Shown here piece after piece: positions 1,639 to 4,280 of a stretch of 42,481 bases of DNA. The position numbers and the translations under genes were made by a program. Numbering within the stretch: position 1 is the first letter of the stretch; every line of letters starts with the position of its first letter. The DNA lies in IMG/VR virus record IMGVR_UViG_3300047470_000534, positions 1 through 42,481 of that record, one strand, 5' to 3'. The notes beneath the pieces were generated by a model that worked only from the letters and a program-made list of their open reading frames with translations, did no database searches and had not been told where the DNA came from. The DNA comes from a virus.

Positions 1639-1868
1639 TACAGTTCGATGCCGCCCTTACCTTCGGTGCCGAACAGGTCGGCGAGCGCCGCGTCCAGGTC
1701 GGAGCGCAGGGCCAGCATCGCGCCGCGGGGGCCGCGCGGGCGAAAGCGCACCTTGGCGACCCGCTCCCACTCGCGCATCTGGTCGGTGCTGACGCCGGTA
1801 TAGGCCAGCGCAAGGTCGCGATTCATTCCGGCTGGCCAGTCGGGCAGCTTTTCAAGTGCGAGGCCCAT
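1638..1868 (-). CDS. small helix-turn-helix protein, probable excisionase / recombination directionality factor
   Basis: 76 residues. The segment from about residue 15 (NRDLALAYTGVSTDQMREW) resembles the winged-helix DNA-binding part of AlpA/excisionase proteins, in which a helix-turn-helix is followed by a basic wing (RFRPRGPRGA). A GGAG box 9 bases upstream supports the ATG at 1868; the start lies inside the end of the preceding gene. It directly precedes and overlaps int, as expected of xis. The excisionase assignment rests on position and a weak domain likeness. Confidence 0.6.
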   Translation of the reverse strand: MGLALEKLPDWPAGMNRDLALAYTGVSTDQMREWERVAKVRFRPRGPRGAMLALRSDLDAALADLFGTEGKGGIEL

Positions 1869-2355
1869 CGGGCATGCTCCATGGTGCGAGAGTGCGGGTG
1901 TAGGGCAGCATCAGCGGGTGGCACGGATGACCATCTTTCGCTGGCGCGCCGATCGACATCGGCTCCAGATGCATTGCCCGAGCGATGCGATCGACCTCGC
2001 GCCACTGTTCGCGCAACCGTTTAGGCAGCTTTCCGGCCGGACCCCATGCAAAAACACAGCGCTGCACGTCGAGGAATATCTCGGCGAGGCGATAGCCGTT
2101 GTCGGGGCCGACGGGATCGACGGCCGCCGCCAGTGCCCGGACGTCGGTCGACCGGAAGGCGAACAGATTGCCGACAATCAGCCTGCCCCACCCATATCGG
2201 TTACCGAAGCCGCGTAGCTTGCGAATGGTAGCGTCATCCTGCGTGGCATCGGCCGTCGAGGGATTGACCATGATAATCGCGGTCGCACCCTCGCCCGGCC
2301 CGTCGCGTTCGAGGCGATAGCGGAAGGTGTGGCAGGGAGATATGATGGCCTTCAT
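1852..2355 (-). CDS. DUF1643 family protein
   Basis: 167 residues. The features I associate with DUF1643 are present: an N-terminal FRYRLER strand, the motif IIMVNPSTADA-x-x-DDAT (about residues 27-43), RLIVGNLFAFRSTD and, near the C-terminus, HPCHPLML. The family is common in phages and bacterial accessory regions and its biochemical function is unknown to me. The ATG at 2355 is preferred because it follows a GAAGGG box and overlaps the upstream stop (ATGA); the frame stays open for 19 codons further upstream. Confidence 0.8.
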   Translation of the reverse strand: MKAIISPCHTFRYRLERDGPGEGATAIIMVNPSTADATQDDATIRKLRGFGNRYGWGRLIVGNLFAFRSTDVRALAAAVDPVGPDNGYRLAEIFLDVQRCVFAWGPAGKLPKRLREQWREVDRIARAMHLEPMSIGAPAKDGHPCHPLMLPYTRTLAPWSMPDGPRT

Positions 2356-2531
2356 ACTGCACCCTTCGTCGGCTTGCGGTAACTGGCCCTCCAGAATGGG
2401 AGAGAGGACCACTCTTTCTCAGGCATCACATACGGATCGCCCCTGAATGGCCGAAGCATGACCCAGCCCTTTGCCTTGGCCATAAAGCACAGGCACCCAA
2501 GGGTAGGGTGTTGCCGCCGCTCGCCGATCAT
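2352..2531 (-). CDS. small hypothetical phage protein (59 aa)
   Basis: A short reading frame read directly from the sequence. It overlaps the stop of its upstream neighbour at 2528-2531 and the start of DUF1643 at 2352-2355, both as ATGA, so it fills exactly the space between two genes. The protein is basic with a hydrophobic start; GWVMLRPFRGDP and EKEWSSLPFWRASYRKP are recognisable blocks. I do not know its function. The double overlap is the main reason for calling it. Confidence 0.65.
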   Translation of the reverse strand: MIGERRQHPTLGCLCFMAKAKGWVMLRPFRGDPYVMPEKEWSSLPFWRASYRKPTKGAV

Positions 2532-2920
2532 GCCGACGCCCTCTCGATCAACAGCTGCTCGCGAATGCGCAGCCCCAGCCGCGTCAGTCGGCAGTAGCCG
2601 CGATTGCGGTTCTGATATGAATAGCCCTCCCCGCCGACCATGATCCCGCGACGGGCAAGTGCCGCGCAGGTATCGAGGCCGACGCCGCGCGTTTCCACGA
2701 CATAGGTGAAGTCTTGGCCGTCATCGTCAGCTGGCCGGTGCGGCTGGAGGCGACAGAGCAGGCGCTTCTGCGGGTCCGACAGTCCGGCGACGACGACGGC
2801 GATGGCCGCCTGCCCTTCCGCGAGCATGACGTGCAGCTGCGCGGCCTGGCGCTCATCTGCACCGGCACGGCGATCGGCATCGTCGCGTTCGGCGCGCAGG
2901 GTTTCGAGGGTGTCGGTCAT
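2528..2920 (-). CDS. hypothetical protein with coiled-coil N-terminus and winged-helix-like C-terminus
   Basis: 130 residues. The first 35 are charged and helical (LETLRAERDDADRRAGADER), probably coiled coil. The rest (from SDPQKRLLCRLQ to RLTRLGLRIREQLL) reads like a small winged-helix module of the type found in phage regulators. Its start overlaps by ATGA the stop of the alternative frame of the methyltransferase gene (2917-2920), not that of the methyltransferase itself, which ends 36 bases earlier. Function unknown. Confidence 0.6.
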   Translation of the reverse strand: MTDTLETLRAERDDADRRAGADERQAAQLHVMLAEGQAAIAVVVAGLSDPQKRLLCRLQPHRPADDDGQDFTYVVETRGVGLDTCAALARRGIMVGGEGYSYQNRNRGYCRLTRLGLRIREQLLIERASA

Positions 2921-4005
2921 GCCGCCTCTCCAAAAAGATTACCCTGTCCGGTCACGTCAGATGCCGAGACGAGCGCTGAGAGATAGGAAGGCATCAGCAG
3001 CCACCAGCGGATCCACGCCGTTTCCTGTCGCTCGAAGCCGCTCAACCCGGTTGGCCATCGCATCAAAGCCTCTACGAAGATGGGATTGAGCCTCCTCTTC
3101 ACTGAGGGCTGGTTGGAGTTCGGGGAATCGGTCGAGTACATCGATCCACCGGCTATCGGTTGGGCCGGGGATGACGGCCGGCGGAAGTGCGAGGCGACCT
3201 CGTTGAGCGGCCGTGCATTGTGATCCAGCGGGTTGACTTGGCTCACGCCCTTGTGATCGCGCGCCTGCGGCCCCGGCCCCGGCCACGCCTGAGCCTGATT
3301 GGGCAATTCCATCTTGCCGACACCAGCAGAACCGCGCGCATCCGCATTCATTGGACCGGCCCAATTCACCGCCACCGGCGTCATCCACTCCATTGCCTGA
3401 TCTTGAAGGTTCGCCGTGTGTCCGCCCGCCAAGCGCTTGCTCATCGGCTGCGCCCCACCGCGCTGGCTGTCGTCCGTCGGCGATCGCCATGATGAACAGT
3501 CGCTCGCGCCGCATGGTGTTTCCCGCTGCGGCCGAGCTGAATATTCCCGCCGCAACGCGGTAGCCCAGTCGCTCCAGTGTCGGCACGATGGCCCAGAGCT
3601 GTCCGTCAGCATTGCCCGGGACGTTCTCGCGGAAGATAAGATCAGGCCTGCACTCCTCGGCGAGGCGGCAGACCTGGGGGGCAAGGAAGCGATCGCCGTC
3701 GGCGCCAGCGCGCTTTCCGGCAACGCTGTTGTCCTGACAGGGGTCGCCTGAAGCGAGGATATGAACGACGCCACGCCATGGTCGAGCATCGAAGGTGAGC
3801 ATGTCAGACCAGACAGGCGCCGGATGAAGCCACCATGCTTCCATCGACGCGACCAGGCTGCCGACTGCTGCGACTTCCCTCTCCACGTAGCAGATGCCGC
3901 GACCAACCTCTCCGCGATGATGGAGGGCGAGCAGGATTCCGAGTTCGAGGCCTCCGACGCCTGCGCAGAGGGACATGATGTTTCGGGGATGTAGAGCCAT
4001 GTCAT
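2917..4005 (-). CDS. alternative-frame Ser/Trp-Pro-rich protein overlapping the cytosine methyltransferase
   Basis: A second reading frame is open over the entire methyltransferase gene (362 residues from ATG 4005). It fits the operon at both ends: its start overlaps the upstream stop (ATGA, 4002-4005) and its stop overlaps the next start (ATGA, 2917-2920). The protein is Ser/Ala/Arg-rich at first, then has W-x-T-P-like repeats (EWMTPVAVNW, AWPGPGPQARDHKG) and the block LNPIFVEALMRWPTG (3052-3090) followed by ETAWIRWW. I recall similar serine-rich phage proteins with WPTPxARD repeats and LNPxFVEWLMGWP blocks, so this may be a true protein rather than a shadow. The alternative is that conservation of the methyltransferase frame forces this composition. 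Confidence 0.45.
   Translation of the reverse strand: MTWLYIPETSCPSAQASEASNSESCSPSIIAERLVAASATWRGKSQQSAAWSRRWKHGGFIRRLSGLTCSPSMLDHGVASFISSLQATPVRTTALPESALAPTAIASLPPRSAASPRSAGLILSSARTSRAMLTDSSGPSCRHWSDWATALRREYSARPQRETPCGASDCSSWRSPTDDSQRGGAQPMSKRLAGGHTANLQDQAMEWMTPVAVNWAGPMNADARGSAGVGKMELPNQAQAWPGPGPQARDHKGVSQVNPLDHNARPLNEVASHFRRPSSPAQPIAGGSMYSTDSPNSNQPSVKRRLNPIFVEALMRWPTGLSGFERQETAWIRWWLLMPSYLSALVSASDVTGQGNLFGEAA
2957..4000 (-). CDS. C5 DNA cytosine methyltransferase
   Basis: About 347 residues from the ATG at 4000. It transfers a methyl group from SAM to C5 of cytosine in phage or host DNA. Motifs in order: I (MSLCAGVGGLELG, residues 9-21), IV with the catalytic cysteine (SGDPCQDNSVAGKRAG, Cys88), VI (RENV, 124-127), VIII (MRRERLF, 163-169), a short Gly/Ser-rich region in place of a normal target-recognition domain (about 180-275), then the C-terminal block NRVERLRATGNGVDP (317-331) corresponding to motifs IX/X. 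A longer start at 4039 would run into the upstream gene. Phages use such enzymes to avoid host restriction. The low-complexity recognition region is dual-coding with the frame described separately, which may constrain its composition. Confidence 0.88.
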   Translation of the reverse strand: MALHPRNIMSLCAGVGGLELGILLALHHRGEVGRGICYVEREVAAVGSLVASMEAWWLHPAPVWSDMLTFDARPWRGVVHILASGDPCQDNSVAGKRAGADGDRFLAPQVCRLAEECRPDLIFRENVPGNADGQLWAIVPTLERLGYRVAAGIFSSAAAGNTMRRERLFIMAIADGRQPARWGAADEQALGGRTHGEPSRSGNGVDDAGGGELGRSNECGCARFCWCRQDGIAQSGSGVAGAGAAGARSQGREPSQPAGSQCTAAQRGRLALPPAVIPGPTDSRWIDVLDRFPELQPALSEEEAQSHLRRGFDAMANRVERLRATGNGVDPLVAADAFLSLSARLGI

Positions 4006-4280
4006 GAGCGTTCCCACACGGGGCCATAGTCCACGACAACCGAACGCACCTGCGCCTCGCTGCCGACGAACACGGGATAGAATGTCAGGCCCGACATCAC
4101 GGACATGAAGACGCGGCCGGTGCGATTGACCTCTTCAATCTCGTCCGACGTCAGCTGCCAGCACGAGACGTTGCAAGGTCCGCCACGCTGGCGGAACGTG
4201 TGAAGGTCGGACACATCTTCACGGCCTTCCGGTGCCTTGAAAACGAAGTTCGATCCGGCGAAATCAACTGCATAGGCCAT
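4002..4280 (-). CDS. hypothetical phage protein (92 aa)
   Basis: 92 residues, soluble, with an acidic middle (TSDEIEEVNRTGRVFMSVMSG) and a C-terminal PVFVGSEAQVRSVVVDYGP. I do not recognise a named domain. Start and stop each overlap neighbouring genes (4280 with the upstream stop; ATGA at 4002-4005 downstream), so it belongs to the leftward operon. It precedes the methyltransferase, but nothing in the sequence ties it to methylation. Confidence 0.65.
   Translation of the reverse strand: MAYAVDFAGSNFVFKAPEGREDVSDLHTFRQRGGPCNVSCWQLTSDEIEEVNRTGRVFMSVMSGLTFYPVFVGSEAQVRSVVVDYGPVWERS

Follow-up and report, generated by a model that had tools for sequence, protein, structure and literature searches.

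Organization of the locus

The window analyzed here is the whole 42,481-nucleotide stretch of an IMG/VR virus record (IMGVR_UViG_3300047470_000534), and two overlapping reading frames are found on its minus strand. Frame A (2957..4000, minus strand; ATG at 4000, stop at 2957) encodes the large, alpha-like chain of a C5 DNA methyltransferase (MTase), 347 aa in length. Frame B (2917..4005, minus strand; ATG at 4005, stop at 2917) would encode a second, beta-like chain of 362 aa; it is the +1 frame of A and has no internal stop over its 362 codons. B starts 5 nt ahead of A and ends 40 nt past it, the two start codons forming the double start ATGACATG (3998..4005, minus strand), in which the ATG at 4005 belongs to B and that at 4000 to A. 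The identity of A as a C5 MTase, the openness of B throughout and the coordinates of both frames had been given in an initial annotation of this DNA and were confirmed by our analysis.

The same annotation had noted that both ends of B overlap neighboring genes through ATGA, which holds for the window and is general among its relatives. The upstream operon gene (4002..4280, minus strand), a member of a family of unknown function (phrog_11885, E 1e-7), ends with a TGA at 4004-4002 that sits within the ATGA of the B start, and in 81 of 84 relatives an upstream ORF terminates at the start. The ATG of the downstream operon gene (2528..2920, minus strand) sits within the terminal ATGA of B (2920-2917), and a start codon overlaps the B stop in 75 of 88 relatives. 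A DUF1643 gene (1852-2412, minus strand; PF07799, E 1.3e-28; phrog_3230) lies further downstream in the same operon direction. The GC content of A at codon positions 1, 2 and 3 is 0.75, 0.56 and 0.63, respectively, a profile that would be abnormal if only one frame were coding.

Frame A carries the catalytic motifs

Residues 7-177 of A match PF00145 (E 1.2e-18), and the chain also matches PHROG 29583 and 363, both DNA methyltransferase. The catalytic region with motifs I-VIII, including PCQ, ENV and RRER (3470..3982, minus strand), is defined by the Pfam match, by a profile match and by strong constraint (wA 0.13), and P87, C88, E125, N126 and V127 are invariant in 65 relatives. In the usual, single-chain form of C5 MTases, one chain holds both the target-recognition region (TRD) and motif IX besides the catalytic motifs. 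In A the Pfam match stops at residue 177, and a profile alignment with single-chain phage MTases covers motifs I-VIII only (E 1.8e-33). Across most of the TRD region A is an open, unconstrained linker, which is followed by motif X, NRVERLRATGNGVDP (3008..3052, minus strand), with d2 about 0.01 and with N327, G328 and V329 invariant in the 65 relatives.

Frame B matches the recognition part of C5 methyltransferases

Three parts can be distinguished in B. Its N-terminal extension lies over the catalytic motifs of A (3511..4005, minus strand), is almost devoid of stops among relatives (4 vs 96 expected) and is weakly constrained (wB about 0.5). It is followed by a TRD with degenerate W-x-T-P modules (3106..3504, minus strand; wB 0.11-0.16), identified by a profile match to the TRD of phage MTases. 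The W-x-T-P repeats described earlier are clear in the relatives, while in the window itself they are degenerate (WRSP, WMTP, WAGP, WPGP). The third part is a motif-IX-like block, RRLNPIFVEALMRWPTG (3046..3096, minus strand), nearly invariant in 78 relatives with the consensus LNPxFVEWLMGWPxGW, which profile-matches the in-frame RLAPAFSEWMMGWPAGW of single-chain MTases. The blocks LNPIFVEALMRWPTG (about 3046-3090) and NRVERLRATGNGVDP (about 3008-3052) had been taken to be encoded by the same bases; they are in fact adjacent, with 7 nt in common.

A comparison of B with protein families, recommended in the initial annotation, returned no match to Pfam or NCBIfam for B alone, while the B of the window matched phrog_27243 (E 3e-13) and phrog_1008 (E 8e-8). 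At E <= 0.001, PHROG 27243 was matched by 78 of 78 B relatives and PHROG 1008 by 73 of 78. The latter family also covers an internal gene of a Paenibacillus phage, a nested ORF of Salmonella, the beta-like chains of actinophages and the C-terminal half of the mycobacteriophage protein gp27. PHROG 1008 carries the label DNA methyltransferase and PHROG 27243 that of unknown function, and neither label mentions a position in the +1 frame of an MTase gene. When B was compared with the TRD and motif IX of single-chain and related actinophage MTases, a probability of 97 and an E of 1e-10 were obtained. On these profile comparisons, B is homologous to the TRD and motif IX of C5 MTases. The alignment of A is limited to motifs I-VIII, and that of B covers the TRD plus motif IX; B thus carries the parts that are missing from A, a point that the initial annotation had missed.

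Structure prediction was less informative. AlphaFold2 models of B alone, built from alignments without rows from annotated phage records, were of low confidence in two runs (mean pLDDT 59 and pTM 0.28 in one of them), and a Foldseek search with the model gave no fold match. An obligate partner could explain the poor model, which lends no support to the assignment. A sequence search of the PDB with B gave a single short match, to the MS2 coat protein, which was taken as chance.

Each B has between 0 and 6 TRD modules. A near-identical module (SPKASDPEKAGPNMRGSKGDVPLPGQA and variants) is common to the otherwise divergent B of five loci (L003, L004, L007, L011, and L012), which suggests module shuffling and possibly recognition of several targets.

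Both frames are kept open among relatives

Three sets of loci were collected, by searching B against bacterial and archaeal genomes (79 loci), B against viral contigs (79 loci) and A alone against viral contigs (80 loci, 77 of them new), the last set being gathered irrespective of frame B. Both frames were open end to end in 73 of 79, 74 of 79 and 72 of 77 loci in these three separate scans, counts that are not independent as the sampled loci are related to one another. B was thus open over its full length in 72 of the 77 viral loci retrieved by A alone. In total, hundreds of related phages and prophages have both frames open, and B occupied the +1 frame of A at every locus scanned.

Synonymous shuffling of A in 88 dereplicated loci predicted 328 stops in B; 50 were seen, most of them the terminal stop of B itself, and B was stop-free in 46 loci vs 6.3 expected. 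In the third frame, used as a control in the same shuffle, 896 stops were counted vs 1045 expected. Over motifs I-VIII, codon shuffling gave the 96 expected stops against which the 4 observed in B are to be read, and within codons 1-30 of B there were 4 stops vs 49.5 expected, so that openness is significant from codon 1. The reverse shuffle, of synonymous codons in B, predicted 150 stops in A over the TRD, where none was found, and 207 in the third frame, where 206 were found. The absence of stops indicates that A is still read through the TRD.

Exceptions were few. A was broken and B intact in five loci (L031, L064, L073, L197, and L222). Relatives with an intact MTase and a broken or shortened B, which the initial annotation held would tell against a second protein, were sought and amounted to L088 and L142. 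A search for standalone B genes found no case; in all alphaproteobacterial loci B was the +1 frame of an MTase gene. The possibility that B also occurs as a gene of its own was rejected, the "standalone" annotations inspected being instances where the gene caller had picked frame B.

Selection acts on different frames in different regions

Sites were sorted according to what a change does in each of the two frames, in a comparison of 64 disjoint homologue pairs. Over the whole gene, selection on B was evident from a dNN/dNS of 0.25 and a dSN/dSS of 0.34, and selection on A from a dNN/dSN of 0.26, these pairs being mostly from alphaproteobacterial prophages and SS sites being few, about 9 per gene. 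The control of 175 neighboring gene pairs gave a dNN/dNS of 0.81, a dSN/dSS of 1.09 and a dNN/dSN of 0.165, and the +1 frame of neighboring genes is accordingly under weak selection, if any. The check at synonymous sites that had been proposed for this locus therefore shows B to be selected (dSN/dSS 0.34 vs 1.09). A chance ORF or GC artefact was considered and ruled out by the shuffles together with the neighbor controls.

The constraint alternates along the gene. A is under purifying selection in motifs I-VIII and X, and B in the TRD and the motif-IX block. Over motifs I-VIII A dominates (wA 0.13, with wB about 0.5). In the TRD it is B that is under constraint (wB 0.11-0.16), and amino-acid changes in A behave as neutral (wA 1.03). 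The C-terminus is constrained in both frames. The TRD had been proposed to evolve under double constraint, a view that these values do not bear out, as only B is constrained there and A is merely kept open. In the window's own clade the direction is unchanged (TRD wB 0.37-0.50, wA 0.62-0.83), in pairs that were aligned on B, the A-based alignment being unreliable in the TRD. Amino-acid constraint is absent from the first ~27 residues of B, so the real B start could be further in.

Alternative layouts of the same enzyme parts

The same parts are arranged in several ways among relatives. In the mycobacteriophage proteins prophiGD91-2 gp27 and Madiba gp71, motifs I-VIII, LPTP modules, the IX block RLAPAFSEWMMGWPAGW and motif X are all in frame; these have the same parts as A and B together, but in one frame and one chain. 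The gp27 gene (L264:2004-3158) has an extra LLPTPRATDGTKGGPNQRGSSGDLMLPSAVA module directly after motif VIII that lies in the +1 frame, whereas the modules behind it are in frame; it looks as though an indel within the repeat array had displaced it. In Arthrobacter phage Eesa (gp39/gp40) and Mycobacterium phage Miramae (gp79/gp78), A stops after motif VIII, and the TRD, IX and X are in the +1 frame; the layout of Upyo gp54/53 is similar.

Relatives from E. coli, Salmonella and Klebsiella have a nested +1 ORF with the TRD and motif IX, while motif X stays in A. B matches these nested ORFs with an E of 1.3e-26, and their TRD shows the same division of constraint (wB 0.14-0.20, wA 0.88). Codons 1-40 of B are unconstrained in the enterobacterial relatives, and +1 stops occur there in most loci. 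For Paenibacillus phage Diva (47% GC), the annotation supplied by its authors already lists the nested ORF, under the name "g49 internal gene." The more distant, classical C5 MTase of Streptococcus phage Javan6 has no frame B and carries motif IX in frame. In addition, M.BatI, an orphan prophage C5 MTase reported to be 20-30% below the usual size with an unusually short TRD (PMC8936443), could be a further case with a hidden second frame.

Some individual loci deserve mention. At L010:3915-4990 a natural indel fuses the catalytic N-terminus of A to the C-terminus of B (PRRLNPAFAAWLMG), with motif X in another frame. In the genome of Pseudotabrizicola algicola (L049), frame B was matched seven times, at about five sites, indicating that several of its prophages carry the locus. 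In Acidovorax phage Alfacinha1 (OP131590 gp46; L013:2899-4032) the annotated CDS is frame B, named a cytosine-specific methyltransferase, and in Synechococcus phage Ssp-JY39 (PP438429; L014:2906-4021) the annotated CDS is likewise frame B; A is unannotated in both.

Comparison with known systems

In M.EcoHK31I, the gene of the large chain also encodes the small chain, in a different frame and from an internal start; this small chain is about half as long as B. As summarized in PMC3404938 (citing Lee, Kam and Shaw 1995), M.EcoHK31I is a two-polypeptide C5 MTase with motifs I-VIII and X in the large chain and motif IX in the second, and its predicted TRD is placed in the large chain. The present locus resembles this outline, in that A has motifs I-VIII and X without IX, and IX is found in the predicted chain of the overlapping frame B. 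The nested +1 arrangement of the E. coli, Salmonella and Klebsiella relatives is a further likeness. There are also differences. B extends over all of A, with its start codon 5 nt ahead of that of A; since the start of B is not internal to A, the locus would be a variant working like the M.EcoHK31I type rather than the type form. Selection places the TRD in B, both here and in the E. coli-type relatives, whereas that summary gives a predicted TRD in the large chain of M.EcoHK31I, an enzyme compared here through its published description. The specificity of M.EcoHK31I, YGGCCR, is not assumed for the locus of the window.

The second chain of M.AquI is described in the same summary as consisting of motifs IX and X (PMC3404938). 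M.AquI is similar in being split between motif VIII and the end, into two chains that must pair, but motif X is in frame A here, and the AquI-like layout is instead that of Eesa and Miramae. The ShiLan domain, an out-of-frame HNH endonuclease (PMC11855218), is likewise a protein concealed in a different frame of a phage methylase gene for DNA. That case is a homing endonuclease insertion, whereas here the second frame corresponds to a part of the same enzyme and there is no insertion.

The principle of two chains in overlapping frames is thus already known. What appears to be new is a second chain that covers the whole gene and shares the start region, the breadth of the arrangement among phages and prophages, and the location of the TRD in the second frame. 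A survey of overlapping frames in phage C5 MTases was not found in the openly licensed literature.

A probable two-chain methyltransferase and its alternatives

Taken as a whole, the evidence makes it likely that a single C5 cytosine methyltransferase is encoded at this locus in the form of two chains that share the same DNA. The A chain would contribute the SAM-binding and catalytic motifs I-VIII, an unconstrained linker and motif X, and the B chain a leader overprinted on the catalytic motifs of A, the TRD, motif IX and a tail overprinted on motif X. The two would pair into one enzyme in the manner of M.EcoHK31I, each supplying the parts that its partner lacks. Both chains may be made from one mRNA by initiation at starts 2-5 nt apart. 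The A and B start codons are found at this spacing in about 224 of 230 loci (ATGTGG, ATGACATGG, ATGCATGAG), and a Shine-Dalgarno-like core precedes the starts in 44 of 85 cases vs 14 of 85 in a control window. Translation of B, pairing of A with B and a requirement of both chains for methylation are what we infer from the sequences. The initial annotation's proposal of two proteins from one locus is supported by the purifying selection on B and its membership of PHROG 27243 and 1008, with translation of B being the part that we infer.

That annotation had also considered a frameshift variant with another C-terminus. Programmed +1 frameshifting after motif VIII would fuse the catalytic part of A to the TRD and motif IX of B, and the +1 position of B, the actinophage layout in which the A chain ends after VIII and the TRD, IX and X lie in the +1 frame, and the natural indel at L010 that merges the N-terminus of A with the C-terminus of B all agree with it. 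Such a product would, however, have no need of an open B over motifs I-VIII (4 stops vs 96 expected), of an open A from the TRD to motif X (0 stops vs 150 expected) or of B start codons beside those of A, and it would be without motif X. As the openness of the two frames in these regions is left unexplained, we regard frameshifting as improbable. It is similarly doubtful that B is a separate protein with another role, e.g., anti-restriction or structural, that happens to overlap the methyltransferase; the lack of matches in Pfam, NCBIfam and fold searches would fit such a protein, but the middle and C-terminal parts of B match the TRD and motif IX of phage C5 MTases, exactly the parts that A is without. 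That B is untranslated, its openness and conservation being forced by the amino acids of A and by high GC, is most improbable and largely refuted by the selection tests: GC-rich DNA does yield long spurious ORFs, several on the antisense strand of the window, but synonymous shuffles of A give many stops, dSN/dSS is 0.34 vs 1.09 in neighbors, the constrained frame in the TRD is B and not A, and the pattern is also present in phages of 47-57% GC.

Returning to the two-chain enzyme, the interlocked, co-extensive pair, with starts 2-5 nt apart and the TRD frame opposite the catalytic frame, probably represents a large and overlooked class in phages and prophages, in which each chain would consist of a functional part and the frame-shadow of its partner. 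The class would have been overlooked because annotators list only one frame or the other.

Implications

At the level of annotation, a correction is called for, as at least two public phage records give only the frame without the catalytic motifs. Codon-optimized cloning of one frame would wreck the other chain, and the enzyme could then seem falsely inactive. If the two-protein reading is true, 1.1 kb of DNA would be double-coding almost end to end, for two proteins that are halves of one enzyme, an overlap that to our knowledge would be among the longer ones on the same strand in phages. It would also be a clean natural case of overlapping genes that share constraint, with the frames alternating along the gene.
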